DNA from: Christiangramia gaetbulicola
Lineage (GTDB): Bacteria; Bacteroidota; Bacteroidia; Flavobacteriales; Flavobacteriaceae
Reading direction: 5' to 3'
Assembly (NCBI RefSeq): GCF_003054225.1
Contig: NZ_QBKQ01000001.1
Coordinates: 558,001 to 622,000 of the forward strand
Length of the DNA: 64,000 nucleotides
Positions within the stretch are counted from its first letter, which is position 1. The number at the start of each line of letters is the position of its first letter. The translations under genes were made by a program, and so were the position numbers. Positions 6,623-17,339 of this stretch are shown here, one piece after another. Under the pieces are notes generated by a model. The model was given only the letters and a program-made list of their open reading frames with translations. It was not told where the DNA came from and made no database searches.

Positions 6623-7393
6623 TTACTGTGCGCTCCAGCCACCGTCCAGCACATAGGCCGATCCGGTGATCGCTGAAGAATCTTCCTTCGCTAGAAACAA
6701 TGCCAGTTCGGCAATCTTCTTCTCCGGAATGAATTCCTTAACGGCCTGTTTCTTTAACATGACCTGTCTTACTACTTCTTCTTCGGAAAGGTTATGAGCT
6801 TTTGCCTGATCTTTTATCTGTCCTTCTACCAAAGGAGTTTTTACGTAACCGGGACAAATCGCATTGCAGGTAATATTACCCCCTGCTCCTTCCAGTCCCA
6901 GAACTTTGGTAAGACCAATAACCCCATGCTTAGCCGAGACGTAAGCAGATTTATATTCTGATGCCCTTAAACCATGCACCGATGAAATATTAATGATCCT
7001 TCCAAAACCGTTCTTTTTCATGGACGGCCATACTGCCCTTGAGGCTACAAATACCGAAGAGAGGTTGATCGCAATGATATCGTTCCATTTCTCCAGCGGA
7101 AATTCTTCTACTTTAGAAACATACTGTATCCCGGCATTATTGATCAACACATCTATCTTTCCGAATTCTTTCAGGGTTTTAGCGATCAATTGATTGATGG
7201 CTTCCTGATCTTTTAAATTCGCGTTAGAGAAGGCTGTTTTCACCGAATTTTCTATTCCTATCTTTTCGGCGATCTCAGGCCCATTCTTTTCCAGCCCATG
7301 GAACATGATATCATAACCGTTCCGGGCAAATGCCACGGCGATAGATTTTCCTATTCCACTGGTGCTACCCGTGATCAATGCAACTCTACTCAT
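6623..7393 (-). CDS. bdhA: D-3-hydroxybutyrate dehydrogenase (SDR)
   Basis: This 256-residue short-chain dehydrogenase oxidises D-3-hydroxybutyrate to acetoacetate with NAD+ in the cytoplasm. It shows the cofactor motif TGSTSGIG (8-15), NNAG, the catalytic Ser in ISSVHG and YVSAK with Tyr/Lys. Substrate-side sequences typical of bacterial 3-hydroxybutyrate dehydrogenases are present: the HGL segment after the catalytic Ser, CPGYVKTPLVE and the final DGGW. Its start overlaps the upstream hydrolase gene by 4 bp (ATGA), so the two are translationally coupled. It is the last gene of the 6.6-16.1 kb cluster and gives the clearest hint of the pathway. Confidence 0.88.
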   Translation of the reverse strand: MSRVALITGSTSGIGKSIAVAFARNGYDIMFHGLEKNGPEIAEKIGIENSVKTAFSNANLKDQEAINQLIAKTLKEFGKIDVLINNAGIQYVSKVEEFPLEKWNDIIAINLSSVFVASRAVWPSMKKNGFGRIINISSVHGLRASEYKSAYVSAKHGVIGLTKVLGLEGAGGNITCNAICPGYVKTPLVEGQIKDQAKAHNLSEEEVVRQVMLKKQAVKEFIPEKKIAELALFLAKEDSSAITGSAYVLDGGWSAQ

Positions 7394-8181
7394 GATCTAA
7401 AAAATTTTAAAAGTTCTTCATTAAATTGCTCCGGCTGATCCATGGTAACCCCGTGACGGGAGTTTTTGATCACTTCCAGCCTGGCATTTTTCATTTTCGA
7501 CGTATAAGATTCCTTTAATTCCACCGGGGTGTAATCCAGATCTGAAGCCACCACCAGCGCTGGAACGTCTATTGTTTTTACTTTCTCTCCGATCCCCCAA
7601 TCCATCAGGGTAATGAAGGAATTATAATATGCCTCCAGGTCGTTGAGACTGGCTCTTTCATAGAACGCATCGCGGAGATGCTTTTGTTCTTCTTCCGGAA
7701 ACATGCCTTCAGCAACTTTTTCTGCCATGGCGTTCATTCCCTTGGTCCGCAATAATTCTGTACGCTCTTTGATCATCTGCTCTCCCATTTGGCCTAGCGC
7801 ATTAAAATCTGGCGCAGTATTTACGATGACCAATTTCGAGATAAGCGATCTATACTTTACAGCCATTTCGAAAGCAACGGCTCCTCCCATAGAAAAACCT
7901 ACGAGCATACATTTTGATATTCCCAGTTCATCGAGGAGATGTTTCATATCCTCGGCACATTTGGAAACCCCGTAAGCCTCTTTTCCTTCAGGCTTGGAAG
8001 AATTCCCATGCCCTCTCAAGTCTGGAGCTATGATCCGGAACTCCTTAGAAAAAGGCTCCACTTGCAGATCCCAATCAGCTTTGGTAGATCCTAACCCATG
8101 GAGAAGAAGAATTACTTCTCCTTCTCCCCGGTCAAGATATTCCAGGCTAATCCCGTTCTTTAAATCTTTTTTCCTGATCAT
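7390..8181 (-). CDS. Alpha/beta hydrolase, cytoplasmic
   Basis: The 263-residue protein has the alpha/beta-hydrolase fold: HGLGSTK oxyanion region near the N-terminus, nucleophile elbow GFSMGG, an acid in ASDLD and the catalytic His in SRHGVT near the C-terminus. No signal peptide is seen, so it acts in the cytoplasm. It lies 21 bp downstream of the TonB receptor and overlaps the 3-hydroxybutyrate dehydrogenase gene by 4 bp. The context suggests an esterase that releases 3-hydroxybutyrate from oligomers or esters. This is inference; the fold alone also fits many other ester or lactone hydrolases. Confidence 0.85.
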   Translation of the reverse strand: MIRKKDLKNGISLEYLDRGEGEVILLLHGLGSTKADWDLQVEPFSKEFRIIAPDLRGHGNSSKPEGKEAYGVSKCAEDMKHLLDELGISKCMLVGFSMGGAVAFEMAVKYRSLISKLVIVNTAPDFNALGQMGEQMIKERTELLRTKGMNAMAEKVAEGMFPEEEQKHLRDAFYERASLNDLEAYYNSFITLMDWGIGEKVKTIDVPALVVASDLDYTPVELKESYTSKMKNARLEVIKNSRHGVTMDQPEQFNEELLKFFRS

Positions 8182-8202
8182 CTGTCTAACAGGATTTGAT
8201 TC

Positions 8203-10677
8203 TTAATTCTTTCCTATTGGCAGGTGATATTTTAGCTCAACCAAGAACAATCTTCCGATCTCTGGAGAAGCTACGAACTGTCTTACTTCAGAATCAAACA
8301 GGTTGGTTACAGAAGCTCCCACGGTCCAGTTCTCATTGAATTTATATCCTACATTCAGATCAAGATTGAAGAATCCTCCTAACGGCCCATAGTTCCAGGT
8401 TCTACCATTTCTGGCATTTTCGATCACATCATCTACCCCATCTCCATTAAGATCCTGAGTTTCTGCAGCGATATTGATCCCTGAAAAGAAATCATATTCC
8501 TGCACATATCTTCCGTAAAGTGAACCGAAGAATTTTGGTCCTGTGTAGTAATATCCGATTCCGAATTTATTTTCAGGAGTATTCAAAGGAAGGTCTGTAT
8601 CTAATACCAAACCATCTCTGTTCCCGTCATTGGCAGGATCATTTTTGTCTATATCGTATCCAAAATATGAGTAGTTGAAAGAAAGCCTGTTCTGGTCGTT
8701 GATGAAGTAATTGATCCCAAGATCTGCTCCGTAAGTATCAACCTTACCGAAGTTAAGATAGGTAAGCACAAAAGATCCATCTGAACCAGGAATTAAATCC
8801 CCTATTGGAGTATCACCTCTTCTGGCCACCGGAGAGGTCGCAGAAATATTGATCAAAGGGCTCAGGAAGTCTTCAGACATATTGTAGTAAGCATTCGCTT
8901 CGAAGAAAGTCTTTTCTCCAAATAACTTTCCTTTATATCCAACTTCCCAGGACTTGATAGTTTCCACTTGCAGTTCAGGAATTTCTGTTCCGTCTTGAAG
9001 GGTGAATCCTTCCCCGTTACCTAATACAAGACCTCCAAAAAGGTTTCCGCTTAGGTTAAGAATAGATGGAGCGGCGATCCCTTTTCCATAAGTAAGTCTG
9101 AAACTACCAAAATCGAAATTCTTTACGATCGCAGCTTTAGGAATGAAGTTTCCTCCATATAATTCATGATCATCATATCTACCAACAAAAAGAAGGTCTA
9201 AACCGGCATCTTCGAAAGTATATTCCAATTGTCCATAAACACCAACCTGGTCTATTTTGATCCCTCCTTCATCCAAAAGATAAGTTCCTTTAGAATCGGC
9301 ATTATCCTGCTGATATTGCGCTCCAATCACATAGGTTAAATTCCCGAAATTGTTGTTGTACTGAGCTTCAGCATTCAGTCTTTTAGAAGCATCTTTAAAT
9401 ACAGATCCTCTAGGGAGGCTAATCCCACCATTCGGGATACCTTCGATTGGGAACCACTGTTCAGTAAAAGATCTTTCCAAAGCTTCAGCTTCAGTAAATC
9501 CATTATTTATAAAAGAAACATAGTTCTGTGTACGCTGGTTGATCGCGTAAGTATCATCTGTCTTACTCCAGGTATGGTAAAGGTTTCCATAGAAATGAGG
9601 AGACACATATTTTAACTGAAGGTAGTCTATAGACCAATCCTTGATCTGGTTTCTACCAGCATTGGTAACTCCAAGATTCGAGTTATTACTATGTCCGTAA
9701 GATGCGATAAGGTCACTGGTTTCATCTAAACCGTAGTATACCGCTGCACCATATTTTGTAGTAGAAAAATCTCTGTCAAGTTCTAATTCGTCATATGCAG
9801 TAGTTCCTACATATACAGAATCCACATAATCGAATTCTTCTCCCTGGGTTCTTTCTCCCCAAACTTTAAAAGCAAGATTATCATTCACTTCCATGGCATA
9901 ACGGCCACGAGCAGTGAATTGCTTCTGGTTACCAGCACCTAATACAAGGTCTAAACCTTCAGAAGTACGAGGATCTTTTGTTAATGTGTTTACAAGTCCG
10001 TTATGAGCGTTTGGCCCATAAAGAGCTGCGTTAGGTCCTAAAATGATCTCAACTCTTTCGATATCCTCTTTAGTGATCGTAGTAAATGAGCCTAAAGGAA
10101 GCCCTGTGGCTACTAATGAAGATATCCTGCCGTCTTCCACCTGAAGGTTTTTGGAGTTAAAGGCAGAGTTAAATCCACGAATGTTGATCCCGGTTCCCTG
10201 AACCCCTGTTCTTACGAAGTCAACCCCTTTTTGTCTCGCGGCAAGTTCACCTGGATTTGGACCAGGAAAATCTGCTATCTGCTGAGCGCTGATCACGTTT
10301 ACCGTAGCCGGAGCCCTCGTTATTTTTTGTGGTCTTCTATTTGCTGAAACTACCACCTCATCCATTACAGATGCTGAAGGTTCCAGGCTAAAATCCATTT
10401 TCATATCCTCACCAGCTTGTATGGCAATATCTCTGGTAACGGTCTCATACCCTATAAAAAATACTTCGATAGTATAATTATCGGGATCAAGCTCAAGTTT
10501 ATAATATCCACTTTCGTTGGTTGTAGCCCCGGTATTGGTCCCTCTTACAATTATATTGGTTCCTAGTAAAGGTTCCCCGGTAGCGGCATCGGTTATAGTT
10601 CCGCTAATACTTCCCGTCTGAGCGTACGCAAATACCCCAAACAGTAAGCTCATCATGGTGAAAAGTTTGATCTTCAT
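8203..10677 (-). CDS. TonB-dependent outer-membrane receptor of the 3-hydroxybutyrate-type cluster
   Basis: This 824-residue receptor has a signal peptide (about 1-19, ending AYAQ), a CarboxypepD_reg-like domain (about 23-105), a plug domain (about 115-230, with GINIRGF and VEIILGPNAALYGPNA) and a C-terminal beta-barrel. It moves a ligand across the outer membrane using TonB energy. No SusD partner is next to it, which is unlike a classical glycan locus. Its neighbours are a hydrolase and 3-hydroxybutyrate dehydrogenase downstream, and a secreted hydrolase, an acyl-CoA synthetase and a symporter upstream. The ligand is thus more likely an ester or organic acid oligomer than a glycan. A 129-bp gap upstream may hold its own promoter. 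Confidence 0.92.
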   Translation of the reverse strand: MKIKLFTMMSLLFGVFAYAQTGSISGTITDAATGEPLLGTNIIVRGTNTGATTNESGYYKLELDPDNYTIEVFFIGYETVTRDIAIQAGEDMKMDFSLEPSASVMDEVVVSANRRPQKITRAPATVNVISAQQIADFPGPNPGELAARQKGVDFVRTGVQGTGINIRGFNSAFNSKNLQVEDGRISSLVATGLPLGSFTTITKEDIERVEIILGPNAALYGPNAHNGLVNTLTKDPRTSEGLDLVLGAGNQKQFTARGRYAMEVNDNLAFKVWGERTQGEEFDYVDSVYVGTTAYDELELDRDFSTTKYGAAVYYGLDETSDLIASYGHSNNSNLGVTNAGRNQIKDWSIDYLQLKYVSPHFYGNLYHTWSKTDDTYAINQRTQNYVSFINNGFTEAEALERSFTEQWFPIEGIPNGGISLPRGSVFKDASKRLNAEAQYNNNFGNLTYVIGAQYQQDNADSKGTYLLDEGGIKIDQVGVYGQLEYTFEDAGLDLLFVGRYDDHELYGGNFIPKAAIVKNFDFGSFRLTYGKGIAAPSILNLSGNLFGGLVLGNGEGFTLQDGTEIPELQVETIKSWEVGYKGKLFGEKTFFEANAYYNMSEDFLSPLINISATSPVARRGDTPIGDLIPGSDGSFVLTYLNFGKVDTYGADLGINYFINDQNRLSFNYSYFGYDIDKNDPANDGNRDGLVLDTDLPLNTPENKFGIGYYYTGPKFFGSLYGRYVQEYDFFSGINIAAETQDLNGDGVDDVIENARNGRTWNYGPLGGFFNLDLNVGYKFNENWTVGASVTNLFDSEVRQFVASPEIGRLFLVELKYHLPIGKN

Positions 10678-10806
10678 AAAAGATGTTTTAAATTATTTTA
10701 AGACGAATTTAACAAGAGGTTGCACCAATCGACACCCGAGGATAAGATTGTGAAGTATGACCAATGGTTTCTTAGGCGGAATTTAGCCTCAAAGAGAACT
10801 TTTACC

Positions 10807-12246
10807 CTAGTAAATTAGAGACTTGTCGCTAAAGTGTGACTTTAATTTTGAAAAGAACCCCGGCTGGGTAAAAGCAAGTCTATCTATGAAATCATCTAAG
10901 GCGATGAATCCTTCTGAATCCAGCTGGGAAGCAGATTCTATGCTCTGGATAAGCTGCTCGAAAAGTTTATCTTCAGAATACTGCCCGTTGAGATAATTGG
11001 CCAGATGATAATACCAGTGGATCTTCGGAATAAAGTTTTCACGCCCCATGACCTCAGCTTCTCTCTCCAGCAAATTGTACTTATTGGTAACCTTTATCAC
11101 CTCAACAGGCTTTTCAGCCGTAGTAAGCAGCATTAAATAGTTAGAAAAGAATCGACTCCAGCGATGCTCAAAAACATACTTTCGGTTCTCATGAAGAAAG
11201 TTCCTGGCAAAGGTTTCAGCAATGGCGATCCTTTTATTTCTAACCAGCGTACGCACATAATGCGTGGCGAAGCCTAATTTCTGATGATGATTAAATGATG
11301 CCTTAAAAAGTTTATAGTTTTCGGTAAGCAGATCAAGAGCCTCTTTATTCTTATCCTTTTTCAGCAGGATTGCTACCAGGTTATTCAGGTAAAAGAGTTT
11401 ATCACTATTATCCTGCTTCACCGATAAATGCGCATAATATTCAGCCTGGTCCAGATCATTAAGGTTGGAATGCAGGATCACCCGATTTGCATAATAGTTG
11501 AATAGCACGCGGCGGGAGTACATTAAACCGTTCTTGAAACATTCATCGATATAATCGAACATTTCTTTAGCTTTTTCATACTCCTTGTAGTTGAAATACA
11601 AGAAAACCAGCCTTATAAAAGCGTGGTATTTATTTCGACCATCGAGTTCATCGTCATATAAATACTCCAGAAGTTTCGATTCCCAGTGCTTGGTATTGAT
11701 CTTTTGAGAGGTATACTGCCTGATAAGATCCTTGGTAGCATGAAAGATCTCATCTTTCACCTTTAATGACTTCAGGTAATATTTCTCATTTTCTCTGAGA
11801 AATTCACCGGTTACTTCACAATCCTGGTATCTAAACCTCACTAGCAAATAGTCCTGGTATTCTCTTACCAGCTCATAGAATTTCTGAAAATAAAAAGAGG
11901 TATGACCATATACGCTAATAAATTCCAGCAGCTCCTTTTCTTCGGGAGAGGAAATGGTATCGGTAAGGATCTGTTTTTCGATATGGCTCAGGTACTCAAG
12001 GTGAGCGTCCACATCTGCCTTTTTCAGCTTTTTGGAGATCCATTTTTTGATGTAGGCATACTTACGTTTGTCAATATTTTCATCAAAATCTTCTGAAGAA
12101 AAAAAACGCTCGGCATTACGGCAAACCTTATTTAAAATCTCTTCCTTTTCATCGTCCCTTATTCTATTCTCCTTTTGCAGGTAGGCTGCCTCATGGGGCA
12201 ATACGCCTTCAGAAAAATCGGTGAATATTTTAAGTTTAGATTTCAT
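10807..12246 (-). CDS. All-helical protein of unknown function in the hydrolase/TonB cluster
   Basis: I do not recognise this 479-residue protein. It has no signal peptide or membrane segment and is rich in Lys, Glu, Tyr and Leu. From about residue 190 it shows degenerate helix-turn-helix repeats of TPR character (for example FNYKEYEKAKEMFDYI and LNDLDQAEYYAHLSV), which suggests a cytoplasmic scaffold or regulatory protein. The start codon shares one base with the stop of the upstream secreted hydrolase (TAATG), so translation is coupled and the protein likely belongs to the same process. A role in sensing or assembly is inference only. Confidence 0.75.
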   Translation of the reverse strand: MKSKLKIFTDFSEGVLPHEAAYLQKENRIRDDEKEEILNKVCRNAERFFSSEDFDENIDKRKYAYIKKWISKKLKKADVDAHLEYLSHIEKQILTDTISSPEEKELLEFISVYGHTSFYFQKFYELVREYQDYLLVRFRYQDCEVTGEFLRENEKYYLKSLKVKDEIFHATKDLIRQYTSQKINTKHWESKLLEYLYDDELDGRNKYHAFIRLVFLYFNYKEYEKAKEMFDYIDECFKNGLMYSRRVLFNYYANRVILHSNLNDLDQAEYYAHLSVKQDNSDKLFYLNNLVAILLKKDKNKEALDLLTENYKLFKASFNHHQKLGFATHYVRTLVRNKRIAIAETFARNFLHENRKYVFEHRWSRFFSNYLMLLTTAEKPVEVIKVTNKYNLLEREAEVMGRENFIPKIHWYYHLANYLNGQYSEDKLFEQLIQSIESASQLDSEGFIALDDFIDRLAFTQPGFFSKLKSHFSDKSLIY

Positions 12247-13172
12247 TATTCAAGAAAATCCCTGATCTCTTTATTTACTTTTTCAGATTGTTCAAAATTA
12301 ACAAAGTGCCCCGCTTCATCGATGGTTTTCACTGCAATATTATTGAATTTTTCTTCGGAAGTCTTAACGAGACTAGCTATACTTTCAGAAGGATGAAAAT
12401 ACTTGTTAGGAATGAGCATATCGTTCTTCCCGAAGATCATTAAAACCGGAATTTCAATTTTGCCGATTTCGTCGATCACCGGCTCCTCCAGCATGGCATG
12501 TATGTTATTTACCACGGTTTCTGCATAATCCTGAAAATCTTCCGCAGATTTCATAGCGATACGATCATCTACCATGGCCTGGGCATCTTCGGGGAAAGAA
12601 TAGAAATTCATCTTGTAATTAGCCAGAACCTGTTCATCTGAAGCTCCCACCAGCATCGCCGGTGTATATGAGGCTTTCATAATGGTAGCTTCCTGAGCGG
12701 TGAAGGTCTCGATGCCCGCGGGCGCGATTAGGACCAGTTTTTTATAGGTTTCCGGATATTTTAAAACTGAATGCATGGCAATCTGCCCACCCATGGAATG
12801 ACCTGCCAGAACAACATTTTTAAGATCCATCTTCTCTACGATTTCATTTAATATGCCGGCATATTCTGAAAGGCTGTAATCGGTCTTGCTGCGGGATGAT
12901 TTCCCATACCCGGGAAGATCTATAGCGATACATCGATAATCTGAACTTAACCCGGCTATATTTTTCTTCCATGAATCCAGATTACTGGAAAGACCATGAA
13001 CAAAAAGAAGGGTCTCTTCTCCACTACCTTCATCGGCATATGCAATCGTTTCAGAATTTAATTTAATGGTTTTCACAGGCAGATGGTAGGTTACTGTTTC
13101 ACTTATCTTTTCTTGTGCGGCTAGGGAGGTTAAGACCAGGCTGAAAAGACTAAATAATATCCTTTTTTTCAT
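12246..13172 (-). CDS. Secreted alpha/beta hydrolase
   Basis: This 308-residue enzyme begins with a Sec signal peptide (about 1-19, ending SLAAQ), so it works in the periplasm or outside. The hydrolase triad is visible: nucleophile elbow GHSMGG, Asp in FGKNDML and His in EAGHFVNFEQ. The gene overlaps the upstream acyl-CoA synthetase by 23 bp and the downstream helical protein by 1 bp. In this setting it could cleave ester oligomers that have crossed the outer membrane. The exact substrate cannot be read from the sequence. Confidence 0.87.
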   Translation of the reverse strand: MKKRILFSLFSLVLTSLAAQEKISETVTYHLPVKTIKLNSETIAYADEGSGEETLLFVHGLSSNLDSWKKNIAGLSSDYRCIAIDLPGYGKSSRSKTDYSLSEYAGILNEIVEKMDLKNVVLAGHSMGGQIAMHSVLKYPETYKKLVLIAPAGIETFTAQEATIMKASYTPAMLVGASDEQVLANYKMNFYSFPEDAQAMVDDRIAMKSAEDFQDYAETVVNNIHAMLEEPVIDEIGKIEIPVLMIFGKNDMLIPNKYFHPSESIASLVKTSEEKFNNIAVKTIDEAGHFVNFEQSEKVNKEIRDFLE

Positions 13173-14667
13173 ATTGAATAAGCTTAAACATTTCTTTTAA
13201 TTTTTTCCGGTCTATTTTCCCAATTCCAGATTTAGGCAGGGAATTCAGGAAAACAAAATGTCTCGGAACTTTATAAGAGGTCAAATGATGCTTTAGTTTT
13301 TCGGTGAGCCCATCTTCGGTAAGATCCTGTATATTACCCTGCAAAAATGCTACTCCCACTTCTCCCCAGTCCTCATCTTCTACACCAATGACCGCAGCTT
13401 CTTTCGCGAAATTATTTTTTAGAATCGCATTCTCGATTTCTAGCGGATAAATATTCTCACCCCCGGAAATAAACAATTGATTCTTCCGGCCTACCATATA
13501 CATAAAACCTTCGGCATCCATCCTTACCATATCCCCGGTGTAAAACCAGTCATCCCTTATCTTTTCCAGGGTATAGGCCGAATTGTTCCAGTAGCCCGGG
13601 GTAACGATAGCGCCTCTTAAGCATAGTTCACCGTGTTCATTGGCACCGACTTCTTTCCCATCTTCATCAACGATCTTATGGTCCACATAAAAATTAGGCT
13701 TCCCTATCGATCCCTTTTTCCAAATGGCATCATGATGATGCAGGGAAGTGATACAGGGCCCGGCTTCGGTAAGACCATAACCCTGCCTGAGCAGGATGCC
13801 TTTTTCAGCCCATTTATCAATTAACGGGATAGAAAGATCTTCCCCCCCAACTACAATATATTTTAATGCTGGTGCTTTAAAATCCTTGAAAGCAGGATGC
13901 TTAACCATCATCCTGAGCATGGTAGGAATGGCTAAAAAGAGACTGATAGAATTCTTCTGAATATAGTAAAGAACCTTTTTAGGTTTAAAAGATTTCAGAA
14001 AATCCACCCTAGCCCCGCGATGCAACATTGGTAAAAGCAGCACATTCCATCCTGAGGTATGATAGGGCGGCAAGGCATTCAGGGTAAAATCTGCCGAGGT
14101 GATCTCCAATTGAACCGAGGTATTCAAACTATTCCAGAAAAGCATGCGGTTTGTATAAAGCACACCTTTTGGTTTCCCGGTGGTTCCCGAAGTATAGAAA
14201 ATGAAAACTGCCTGTTCGGGATCTATTTCGGTAAGCTTTTGCTCAATTTTCACTGCTGAAGATTCTTCAAAAAGTGCTTCCAGGGAAACCTCATTAAAGA
14301 AAACCTCGTTCTTTAGATCCTGTTGCTTCAGCTGAAAATCATCTTCGAAGATCAATAATTCCGGCTCAACATCCTGAACGCAATAGGCCATTTCTGAAAC
14401 CGTAGAACGATAATTCAATGGAACCAGGATCGCGCCCATTCTTTGCGCCGCGATAAATAGAATCAGATACTCTGGAGAATGTGCCGCCAGCACGGCAATA
14501 CGATCTCCTTTTTCAATAGAATATTCCTTTTTGAGATAAGCCTCTAGTTTCAGGGAGAGCAGATTCAACTCTTTATATGTATAGACCTTCCCGGAATCGA
14601 CCGATGCCACCGCCTTTTTATCGGGGGTGTAATCTGACCATTTTCCTATCCAATCGAAATAATTCAT
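13150..14667 (-). CDS. AMP-forming acyl-CoA synthetase
   Basis: A 505-residue member of the ANL superfamily that activates a carboxylate to its CoA thioester through an acyl-adenylate. It has the P-loop YTSGTTGKPKG, the YGLTEAGP motif, the hinge region YTGDMV and the catalytic Lys in the C-terminal GIGKIDRKKL. Length fits medium- or short-chain acyl-CoA ligases. Next to 3-hydroxybutyrate dehydrogenase it might activate acetoacetate or 3-hydroxybutyrate, but the sequence does not define the acyl chain. It overlaps the symporter gene by 4 bp and the hydrolase gene by 23 bp, which indicates one polycistronic unit. Confidence 0.9.
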   Translation of the reverse strand: MNYFDWIGKWSDYTPDKKAVASVDSGKVYTYKELNLLSLKLEAYLKKEYSIEKGDRIAVLAAHSPEYLILFIAAQRMGAILVPLNYRSTVSEMAYCVQDVEPELLIFEDDFQLKQQDLKNEVFFNEVSLEALFEESSAVKIEQKLTEIDPEQAVFIFYTSGTTGKPKGVLYTNRMLFWNSLNTSVQLEITSADFTLNALPPYHTSGWNVLLLPMLHRGARVDFLKSFKPKKVLYYIQKNSISLFLAIPTMLRMMVKHPAFKDFKAPALKYIVVGGEDLSIPLIDKWAEKGILLRQGYGLTEAGPCITSLHHHDAIWKKGSIGKPNFYVDHKIVDEDGKEVGANEHGELCLRGAIVTPGYWNNSAYTLEKIRDDWFYTGDMVRMDAEGFMYMVGRKNQLFISGGENIYPLEIENAILKNNFAKEAAVIGVEDEDWGEVGVAFLQGNIQDLTEDGLTEKLKHHLTSYKVPRHFVFLNSLPKSGIGKIDRKKLKEMFKLIQYEKKDII

Positions 14668-16145
14668 GCTTTCTTTCTACTTACTAAATATAGAGAATTA
14701 CCAATAACAAAAGATGCCACAACGGCTATGGCCGCAGATACGCCTGGATTGTTCACCGGCTCCTGCATATAGTGAGTTATCCTGCCATAGTAAATAATAA
14801 AATGGATCGCCACCGCTGAAAAACTCGCGATAAAAACCGCATTCTTACTCACCTTCTTGAAATAAATACCAAACAACACCGGCACAAAAGCGGCCGCGAA
14901 ATAGGCGTATACCCCATTCTGGGCAAAAATAGCCACGCTCACATTAGGATCTACGATCTGGTCGTAGCTCAAAAAGAAACTTACTATCGCTAGCAATATG
15001 ATCACGATCTTATTCAGGCCTACCTGGTTGAAATTTTCATTCTTACTCAACGGCGCAATAAGATCTGTAGTAATAGTCGTTGAAAGCGACTGAATTAATG
15101 CTTCCAGAGTAGATAATCCCGCAGAGATCAATCCCGCTACAATGATCACCCCCACCCCGGCAGAAAATGTTTTTACTACGTAGGCAGAAACCAATTCATC
15201 CATTTTCAAAGCTGTGCCGTCAAGACTGAGATCTGGAAAAGTGATCCTCGCATATAAGCCAACCACCACTACCAGGAAGAAAAAACTCATACAAATTATT
15301 GCTACAGTAAGATATTCATTGATCGCCTTTTCACTTCTTAGAAAAAGCGTTTTAGTAATAATATGTGGCTGACAAACAATAGCAATCCCGATAATGATCT
15401 GGCAGATGATAATTTCAAAATAATCCCTGAACAGAAAACTTTCCGGATTCGTAGTTTTAGTAAGATTAGGATCTATTTCATTCAGCAAGCTAACAAAGCC
15501 ATCAAACCCATTCGAGAAATATTCAGATCCAGACATCAATAAAATGATCGCAACCACAAACATGATGATCGCCTGAACTGTATTGGTGTAAACCATCGAA
15601 TTAGCCCCACCAAACATTGTATACCCAAACACAAAAGTGATCAAGCCCATGAGGACATAGAAAGGTTCCAGGTTAAGAGATTTAGAAATGATCTGGGTTA
15701 GACCTACACAGATAAGAACAATAAAAGTGATGAGCAATAACGAAAGAATGGCAAAGAAAATAGTGAGCCCTTTTGAATCGTAACGCTTCCCTATCCATTG
15801 CGCCATGGTCAAGGCTTTCACAGTTGAACCATATTTCTGGAAAGATTTTGTAAAAAATATAAGGGACGCAAAGATCGCTATAGGCATCACGATACCAAAT
15901 GAGATTAATCCTGAGAAACCGTATAACGCGATAAACCCTGGATTTATAATAAAAGTTGCCGCACTGGTCATGGATGCCGCCAGTGATAAACCTACCGCCC
16001 AGGCAGGAAATCCACTACTCCCAATAGCGAAATCATCTATATTCTTGGTTTTGAGATTCCCTCTTATCACAAAAAAGAGAATTACCATGGCATAGACCAC
16101 AAGGAGAATAGTAACGTATAGTGACCAGGTTTCTGAGGCGAACAT
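14664..16145 (-). CDS. Sodium:solute symporter (SSS family)
   Basis: This 493-residue inner-membrane protein has about 13 membrane segments. It carries SSS-family features: GGANSMVYTNTVQ and an N-terminal helix with SLAASMTSAATFI, which matches the sodium-binding Ser/Thr region. SSS members import sugars, amino acids, monocarboxylates or vitamins with Na+. As first gene of the leftward cluster it is the likely inner-membrane importer for the monomer released by the hydrolases, perhaps 3-hydroxybutyrate or a related monocarboxylate. It is divergent from the asparaginase gene. A weak -7-like sequence (AATCTTTG on the minus strand at 16202-16209) lies 56 bp upstream. Confidence 0.9.
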   Translation of the reverse strand: MFASETWSLYVTILLVVYAMVILFFVIRGNLKTKNIDDFAIGSSGFPAWAVGLSLAASMTSAATFIINPGFIALYGFSGLISFGIVMPIAIFASLIFFTKSFQKYGSTVKALTMAQWIGKRYDSKGLTIFFAILSLLLITFIVLICVGLTQIISKSLNLEPFYVLMGLITFVFGYTMFGGANSMVYTNTVQAIIMFVVAIILLMSGSEYFSNGFDGFVSLLNEIDPNLTKTTNPESFLFRDYFEIIICQIIIGIAIVCQPHIITKTLFLRSEKAINEYLTVAIICMSFFFLVVVVGLYARITFPDLSLDGTALKMDELVSAYVVKTFSAGVGVIIVAGLISAGLSTLEALIQSLSTTITTDLIAPLSKNENFNQVGLNKIVIILLAIVSFFLSYDQIVDPNVSVAIFAQNGVYAYFAAAFVPVLFGIYFKKVSKNAVFIASFSAVAIHFIIYYGRITHYMQEPVNNPGVSAAIAVVASFVIGNSLYLVSRKKA

Positions 16146-16361
16146 AAATATGATATTAAGGTCGTGAAATTAAGATTATATTAACATGAATCAACCTCAA
16201 TCAAAGATTTTAAAAGTATGACTTAAGACTCATATAAAATTTTCAATCGCTTAACGACTGTTCAAATGCTATTACCATAAGTGCGACTTATCATTATTAA
16301 GCCTTTATCGAGGCTTTTAATATATTTACATCAAGACTTAGTTTACCATAAAAACCCGGTA

Positions 16362-17339
16362 ATGAAGCGTAGAAATTTTATAATTAATACAGGTATAGCC
16401 GGAGCAGCCTTAAGCGCTACTCCTTCCCTGTTCTCCCAACCAATATTAAACGAATTAAAGATGAATAAAAGTTATCCGGTAGCGGTAGCGACCTGGAATT
16501 TTCAGAATGCCACTAAAATGGCCGGAAAAATGCTCGAAAATGGTGCTTCAGCTTTAGATGCCGTGGAAAAAGGCGTCATGGTAGAAGAAGCAAACCTAAA
16601 GAATACCACTGTTGGAGATGGCGGAGCACCAGACCGTGATGGTAATGTCACCCTGGACGCCTGCATTATGTCTCCGGAAGGAAATGCTGGTTCGGTAGTT
16701 TACCTAAAAGAGATCGCTCACCCGGTATCAGTTGCCAGGAAAGTGATGGAAGAAACTCCACATGTGATGCTTGCCGGGGAAGGCGCATTGCAATTTGCCA
16801 TTCAGCAAGGCTTTCAAAGAAAGAACCTGCTCACAGAAGATTCAGAAAAAGCATGGAAAGAATGGCTGGAGCATAAAGAATACAAACCTATTATCAATAT
16901 TGAAAACCATGATACCATCGGGATGTTGTGTCTCGATGAAAATGGAGATATCGCGGGAGCCTGCACTACCTCGGGACTTTCTTATAAAATGAATGGTCGC
17001 GTGGGAGATTCCCCGATCATCGGCGCAGGATTATTCCTGGACAACGAAGTAGGCGGAGCTGTTGGCACCGGGATGGGAGAAGCCATTATGAAAAGCGTGG
17101 GTAGTTTTTTGATCGTGGAATTAATGCGACAGGGAAAATCTCCGCAGGAAGCCTGTGAAGAGGCGGTGATGAGAACTGTGCGAAAAGCACCAAATCATAA
17201 GGATTTCCAGGTTGCTTATGTAGCCATGAATAAGCAAGGCGAAATTGGATCTTATTGCATACATAAAGGATTCAGTTATGCGAAGTTCCATAATGGCGAA
17301 AGCACTAATAATTTGAGCCTTTCCTATATGGAAGAGTAG
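16362..17339 (+). CDS. N4-(beta-N-acetylglucosaminyl)-L-asparaginase
   Basis: This Ntn-hydrolase cleaves the GlcNAc-Asn bond of glycopeptides. The 325-residue form starting at 16362 opens with a twin-arginine-like signal (MKRRNF, then a hydrophobic stretch to about 26). The open frame extends back to 16281, but those residues are unlike a signal and a TATATTTA box lies at 16321-16328, so 16362 is preferred. The autocleavage site HDTIGM is present with nucleophile Thr at about 185, as is the substrate-binding stretch GRVGDSPIIGAG. Precursor self-cleavage into two chains is expected. It is probably a single gene serving periplasmic breakdown of N-glycopeptides. Confidence 0.9.
   Translation: MKRRNFIINTGIAGAALSATPSLFSQPILNELKMNKSYPVAVATWNFQNATKMAGKMLENGASALDAVEKGVMVEEANLKNTTVGDGGAPDRDGNVTLDACIMSPEGNAGSVVYLKEIAHPVSVARKVMEETPHVMLAGEGALQFAIQQGFQRKNLLTEDSEKAWKEWLEHKEYKPIINIENHDTIGMLCLDENGDIAGACTTSGLSYKMNGRVGDSPIIGAGLFLDNEVGGAVGTGMGEAIMKSVGSFLIVELMRQGKSPQEACEEAVMRTVRKAPNHKDFQVAYVAMNKQGEIGSYCIHKGFSYAKFHNGESTNNLSLSYMEE

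Follow-up and report, generated by a model that had tools for sequence, protein, structure and literature searches.

We have analyzed a seven-gene locus (positions 6623 to 16145) in a 64,000-nucleotide stretch of the Christiangramia gaetbulicola genome, referred to here as the window. This locus is probably a scavenging and catabolic unit for esters of (R)-3-hydroxybutyrate (3HB), most likely the soluble oligomers released from polyhydroxybutyrate (PHB). A role in the catabolism of some 3HB-releasing ester is well supported; we infer that the ligand is a linear 3HB oligomer. The initial annotation of the window had proposed the utilization of 3HB oligomers or related esters. That proposal stands as regards a unit with a 3HB dehydrogenase, hydrolases, a receptor and a symporter and with neither SusD nor carbohydrate-active enzymes (CAZymes), while the choice of a linear oligomer over another 3HB ester is not established.

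All seven open reading frames (ORFs) are on the minus strand, as first described, and the identities given to them agree with our Pfam and NCBIfam assignments. Gene 1 encodes an SSS-family Na+/solute symporter of 493 amino acids (14664..16145; PF00474, E = 1.7e-39). It is followed by an AMP-binding acyl-CoA synthetase of 505 amino acids (13150..14667; PF00501/PF13193), an alpha/beta hydrolase of 308 amino acids with an N-terminal signal for export (12246..13172; PF00561), and an all-helical protein of 479 amino acids resembling tetratricopeptide repeat (TPR) proteins (10807..12246), which is predicted to be cytoplasmic, belongs to no Pfam or NCBIfam family and serves as the marker of the locus. 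A TonB-dependent receptor of 824 amino acids with an N-terminal carboxypeptidase-regulatory-like domain (8203..10677; PF13715, PF07715 and PF00593), a cytoplasmic alpha/beta hydrolase of 263 amino acids (7390..8181; PF00561) and a D-3-hydroxybutyrate dehydrogenase (BDH) of 256 amino acids (6623..7393; TIGR01963, 348 bits) complete the series. The four overlaps reported earlier are exact in the ORF coordinates: 4 bp between symporter and synthetase, 23 bp between synthetase and exported hydrolase, 1 bp between the latter and the helical gene, and 4 bp between cytoplasmic hydrolase and BDH. Gaps of 129 bp and 21 bp separate the receptor from the helical gene and the cytoplasmic hydrolase, respectively. 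No site with the Bacteroidetes-type promoter pattern TTG-N16-22-TAnnTTTG was found 5' of the symporter or of the receptor, and an RNA-family search gave no match at the locus.

The gene order is widely conserved. A receptor-profile scan of 84,980 species genomes returned 80 named loci, and gene order was counted in 98 loci that were fetched and annotated. The order seen in the window, from the symporter to BDH, is found in 71 of these 98, with no other tracked gene between. Conservation in other Flavobacteriaceae was one of the checks proposed in the initial annotation, and it was found: after removal of duplicates, 65 distinct loci beyond that of the window have the full order, in at least 18 genera, and the order is thus kept in at least 66 bacteria. 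The carriers include Christiangramia, Salinimicrobium, Gillisia, Psychroflexus, Gelidibacter, Mangrovimonas, Winogradskyella, Lacinutrix and Oceanihabitans, together with Olleya, Flavobacterium, Sediminicola, Aureibaculum, Tenacibaculum, Ulvibacter, Arcticiflavibacter, Kaistella and Chryseobacterium. Median spacing at the six successive junctions is -4, -4, 0, 139, 11 and -8 bp. Of 149 genomes in the family, six encode a BDH matching at E ≤ 1e-70, and it is these six that also carry a close, adjacent homologue of the helical gene; the chance of this exact six-for-six overlap is 7e-11. In two more of the 149, a more remote homologue of the helical protein (E about 1e-60) is part of a variant locus that lacks BDH. 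A second draw of genomes added one member of the same family and one genome from another family of the taxonomic order, and the full gene order is present in all.

The locus behaves as a unit in its presence and absence. The receptors nearest to that of the window in the receptor-profile scan are 85-92% identical to it, and the helical gene is present in 8 of 24 genomes of the genus. In six congeners that lack this gene, the flanking genes (those for a DUF2723 protein, a deacetylase, a metallophosphoesterase, asparaginase and PolA) are in the same order, and none of the seven genes lies between metallophosphoesterase and asparaginase. Homology to this empty site ends at about 6514 and resumes at about 16361; the borders drawn in the initial annotation are therefore close to those of the unit. 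Salinimicrobium and Gillisia have the locus at the same site, which may point to loss rather than gain within the genus. By conserved order, by the co-occurrence of BDH and helical gene and by whole-unit absence in the six congeners, the seven genes are one functional unit, as had been supposed.

The flanks of the conserved block vary widely, and the asparaginase/PolA flank of the window is common to only 10 of the 80 named loci. In the window, the asparaginase ORF (16281-17339) is called from a GTG, and most congeners are homologous to it only from about residue 24-28 onward; its true start is probably further in. The candidate regulators next to the locus (AraC family, TetR, NrtR-like) vary from genus to genus, as in L083 and further Winogradskyella loci, L073, L029 and L119, and none of them falls inside the seven genes. 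One contig of Mangrovimonas sp. TPBH4 (NZ_LBIO01000037.1) has two copies of the locus and its flanks on opposite strands (L074 and L130, 63737-86184 and 332697-355144). The copies agree in gene layout and are identical at the receptor end; either the region was truly duplicated in inverted orientation or the assembly is at fault.

As judged from its sequence, the last gene encodes a genuine D-3-hydroxybutyrate dehydrogenase, and the earlier identification is upheld. The window protein scores 348.3 bits against TIGR01963 (cut-off 307.05) and also passes PRK12429, and its top PDB matches are true D-3HB dehydrogenases. All 72 sequences of this type (66 distinct loci) have Q94, S142, H144, K152, Y155, K159, Q196 and W257 in the numbering of the Pseudomonas fragi enzyme. 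By comparison, 19 short-chain dehydrogenases/reductases (SDRs) from BDH-less loci keep the catalytic S, Y and K (142, 155 and 159) and differ at all five other positions. These five (Gln94, His144, Lys152, Gln196 and Trp257) we take to be the substrate-side residues, an assumption on which a literature search found no text. The BDH family acts on the free 3HB acid, and the upstream hydrolases must therefore release free 3HB.

The steps that follow BDH can be compared with known PHB and polyhydroxyalkanoate (PHA) degradation, which is described as the action of a depolymerase or oligomer hydrolase (PhaZ/PhaY), then Bdh, then AacS or ScoA/ScoB (PMC7830162). Ester hydrolysis, conversion of free 3HB to acetoacetate and CoA activation have counterparts here. 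Seven distinct loci (two from Flavobacterium, five of Kaistella/Chryseobacterium type) have genes for 3-oxoacid CoA-transferase A and B nearby on the same stretch, with ScoA directly 3' of BDH; a representative ScoA/ScoB pair scores above its cut-offs and the others match CoA_trans. The genome of the window encodes SCOT B (ScoB) away from the locus and two thiolases above cut-off. The locus differs from the known pathway in adding a TonB receptor, a symporter and the TPR-like protein in one operon-like block, and its hydrolases fail the curated PhaZ models. Turnover of the cell's own PHB was considered and rejected as likely: the genome, which is 99.99% complete, has no match to PhaC_N. It likewise has no match to PF10503, and no PHB-depolymerase model scores above its cut-off there. 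Because no PHA synthase and no recognized PHB depolymerase are evident in this genome, the locus would in our reading serve to scavenge 3HB oligomers in solution or other esters of 3HB.

The division of the two hydrolases into one exported and one cytoplasmic enzyme, made in the initial annotation, is supported. By a simple hydropathy measure, which is not a signal-peptide predictor, the N-terminus of the exported hydrolase is strongly hydrophobic in 71 of 71 loci, whereas that of the cytoplasmic hydrolase reaches this strength in none of the 71. A lipobox-like cysteine aligns in the exported hydrolases of five variant loci (L048, L049, L052, L053 and L055). Ser126, Asp251 and His289 of the exported enzyme are invariant in 16 relatives, and Ser97 and His243 of the cytoplasmic enzyme are likewise invariant. 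The best PDB sequence match to the exported-hydrolase profile is the Bacillus thuringiensis PHB depolymerase PhaZ (8ynv, E = 2e-34); matches to the cytoplasmic-hydrolase profile are esterases, with 8ynv at rank 5. These PhaZ matches may hint at a PHB-type substrate and are suggestive only.

Receptor and symporter are present as first reported, and the absence of SusD, glycosidase and sulfatase from the locus is borne out by the Pfam and NCBIfam scans. The seven genes contain no glycosidase, lyase or sulfatase, and a Pfam scan found no SusD or CAZyme in them or in the two immediate neighbors. Against the SusC model TIGR04056 the receptor scores 105 bits, far under the cut-off of 368, which places it outside the SusC/RagA family. 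It is about 55-63% identical to its counterparts in BDH-type loci of other genera. In the receptor tree the BDH-type receptors form one clade with a support of 1.0; the other gene trees gave no clear answer. No NCBIfam model for a named transporter reaches its cut-off with the symporter. The locus works like a polysaccharide utilization locus (PUL), yet it falls outside the SusCD definition. Like SusC/SusD-type PULs it is a single co-directional locus, present or absent as a unit, that runs from an outer-membrane TonB receptor through an exported hydrolase to import and catabolism; unlike them, it has no SusD, CAZyme or sulfatase, its receptor is not of SusC/RagA type, and its proposed target is a hydroxyacid ester rather than a glycan.

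The helical protein is at most TPR-like in its predicted architecture. Its AlphaFold2 model (pLDDT 91) is entirely helical, and residues of about 120-479 match TPR superhelices (Rap, LGN and MalT domain III) with Z of 16-18 over about 270-315 residues, although helical repeats match one another easily; Pfam gives no TPR match. A fold search for clues to its function returned such TPR-like matches only and was set aside. The protein lacks an N-terminal signal by the hydropathy measure, and it may, as a guess, be a cytoplasmic scaffold for binding or regulation. In two loci (L054 and L056) the neighbors of the helical homologue are not the uptake genes but an alaS-like gene and one for a fused acyltransferase/GNAT protein. 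The helical family is therefore not confined to the uptake locus, and a second role for it is suggested.

Relatives of the locus that lack BDH are found in Lutibacter, KSB1, Ignavibacteria and other Flavobacteriales. They share with the seven-gene block a homologous receptor and/or the symporter, synthetase, exported hydrolase and TPR-like protein; they differ in lacking BDH, in their variable order and probably in the hydroxyacid concerned. Distant loci with a homologous receptor pair an SSS symporter and a synthetase with a FabG-like SDR and a KASIII-like gene, while none of the 71 complete BDH-type loci contains KASIII. Repeated independent swaps between BDH and KASIII were considered as an explanation of this exclusion, but the BDH-type receptors are one supported clade, and the exclusion may go back to a single split. 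In five BDH-less loci (L124 and the Lutibacter-type L119, L120, L123 and L127) a secreted esterase scores 264-279 bits against NF050058 (extracellular short-chain-length PHA depolymerase type 1; cut-off 150), a hypothetical-equivalog model whose name is no proof of PHA activity. All five esterases also pass TIGR01840, and the same gene is recognized by similarity in L133. In L124 the esterase lies directly 3' of the receptor, in a locus with the helical protein and no recognized alpha/beta hydrolases, and it may take the place of the exported hydrolase. Downstream of L127 (16618-20825) are genes for a biotin carrier, a biotin carboxylase, a carboxyltransferase and the start of methylmalonyl-CoA mutase; these may fit a hydroxyacid that yields propionyl-CoA, such as 3-hydroxyvalerate, or may be there by coincidence. 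Six loci (L048, L049, L051, L052, L053 and L055) encode a 170-residue lipoprotein and a protein of roughly 520 residues where the TonB receptor would be. The larger proteins match no Pfam family, are 51-98% identical to one another, and have a C-terminal Phe and a barrel-like aromatic composition; they are possibly an alternative outer-membrane channel. Taken together, the BDH-less loci suggest that there is a family of such loci, serving esters of various hydroxyacids.

A pathway can be proposed for the seven gene products. The TonB-dependent receptor would carry the 3HB ester across the outer membrane, the exported hydrolase would cut it in the periplasm, and the symporter would import 3HB or short oligomers over the inner membrane, where the cytoplasmic hydrolase would complete the cleavage of dimers or other small esters. 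BDH would oxidize the free (R)-3HB to acetoacetate, which the synthetase, a 3-oxoacid CoA-transferase or both may convert to acetoacetyl-CoA for splitting by a housekeeping thiolase. Two findings add support beyond what the initial annotation had seen, namely that some genera have CoA-transferase genes next to BDH and that related loci encode PHA-depolymerase-family esterases. Several points weigh against uptake of 3HB oligomers. Dimers and trimers could pass through porins, so that a TonB receptor is not obviously needed. Similarity among alpha/beta hydrolases says little about substrate: a structure search with the exported-hydrolase model gave generic, uninformative ties with lipases, dehalogenases and C-C hydrolases, the closest being PA3053 (4f0j). 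The intracellular short-chain-length PHA depolymerase model NF050089 scores 116 and 105 bits with the two hydrolases, well below its cut-off of 300. No PHA-depolymerase gene was seen in a BDH-type locus, and an extracellular PHB depolymerase elsewhere in carrier genomes was also rejected, as a search of 28 genomes, among them 15 that carry the seven genes, gave no score above the NF050058 cut-off. The assignment of a 3HB-ester function is, moreover, drawn from comparative evidence.

The main weakness of the simple model is the synthetase. CoA activation had been part of the initial annotation, and an AMP-binding acyl-CoA synthetase is indeed present, but acetoacetate as its substrate is not established: the AacS model is not among the best 25 of its 109 NCBIfam matches, the solved structures closest to it are those of fatty-acyl, feruloyl and succinylbenzoate CoA ligases (it resembles FadD13 and MenE), and it is retained in loci with adjacent 3-oxoacid CoA-transferase genes. 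It would provide either redundant activation of acetoacetate or activation of another acid from the ligand. Because the enzyme seems unlike the classical AacS and is kept beside CoA-transferase, a mixed ester has to be weighed, a natural product or lipid that joins 3HB to a second acid by an ester bond; the hydrolases would free both, BDH would take the 3HB and the synthetase would activate the second acid. A TonB receptor suits such a larger ligand, but the surroundings of the BDH-type loci showed no recurring gene for a specific second-acid pathway and the esterases of the related loci point to a hydroxyalkanoate polyester, and we regard this alternative as rather unlikely. Glycans or lipids decorated with 3HB, from which esterases would strip the substituents with only the 3HB being eaten, are brought to mind by the many Bacteroidota TonB receptors that import glycans. 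The lack of SusD, glycosidase, lyase and sulfatase among the seven genes, and the fact that surface de-esterification needs no cytoplasmic esterase, make this improbable. To about the same degree we doubt a general salvage of short-chain acids and esters, not specific for 3HB, whose products also prime fatty-acid synthesis. The FabG-like SDR and KASIII-like genes of BDH-less relatives, which accompany symporters, synthetases and hydrolases of like kind, would fit it, but the substrate-side positions that are invariant in the BDH-type sequences differ in the variant SDRs, and the complete BDH-type loci are devoid of KASIII. For a chance neighborhood of unrelated genes there is nothing beyond generic annotations, and it is contradicted by conserved order, co-occurrence and whole-unit absence to the point of being scarcely credible.

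PHB is very widespread among bacteria as a storage polymer and is also sold as a biodegradable plastic. In Pseudomonas a cluster of 3HB dehydrogenase, acetoacetyl-CoA synthetase and permease likewise brings together dehydrogenase, CoA activation and transporter; it imports monomeric 3HB and is not known to have a TonB receptor or paired hydrolases. An open-access literature search yielded no description of a 3HB/TonB locus of the present kind; subscription papers were outside its reach, and the novelty is provisional. We suggest, with some doubt, that Bacteroidota and neighboring phyla may have a widespread and so far undescribed class of TonB-receptor loci for polyester (hydroxyalkanoate) utilization. 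In these, the module for oxidation would be exchangeable, with BDH serving for 3HB and a FabG-like SDR, KASIII and thiolase for other 3-hydroxyacids, and so would the exported esterases, PHA-depolymerase types included. As far as we found, the uptake of soluble PHB fragments by bacteria that neither make nor depolymerize PHB has been little studied. The existence of congeners with and without the locus makes the idea directly testable. If it is true, an outer-membrane uptake system for polyester oligomers would extend the concept of the utilization locus beyond glycans, and the locus would allow PHB cross-feeding in marine communities to be traced genetically.

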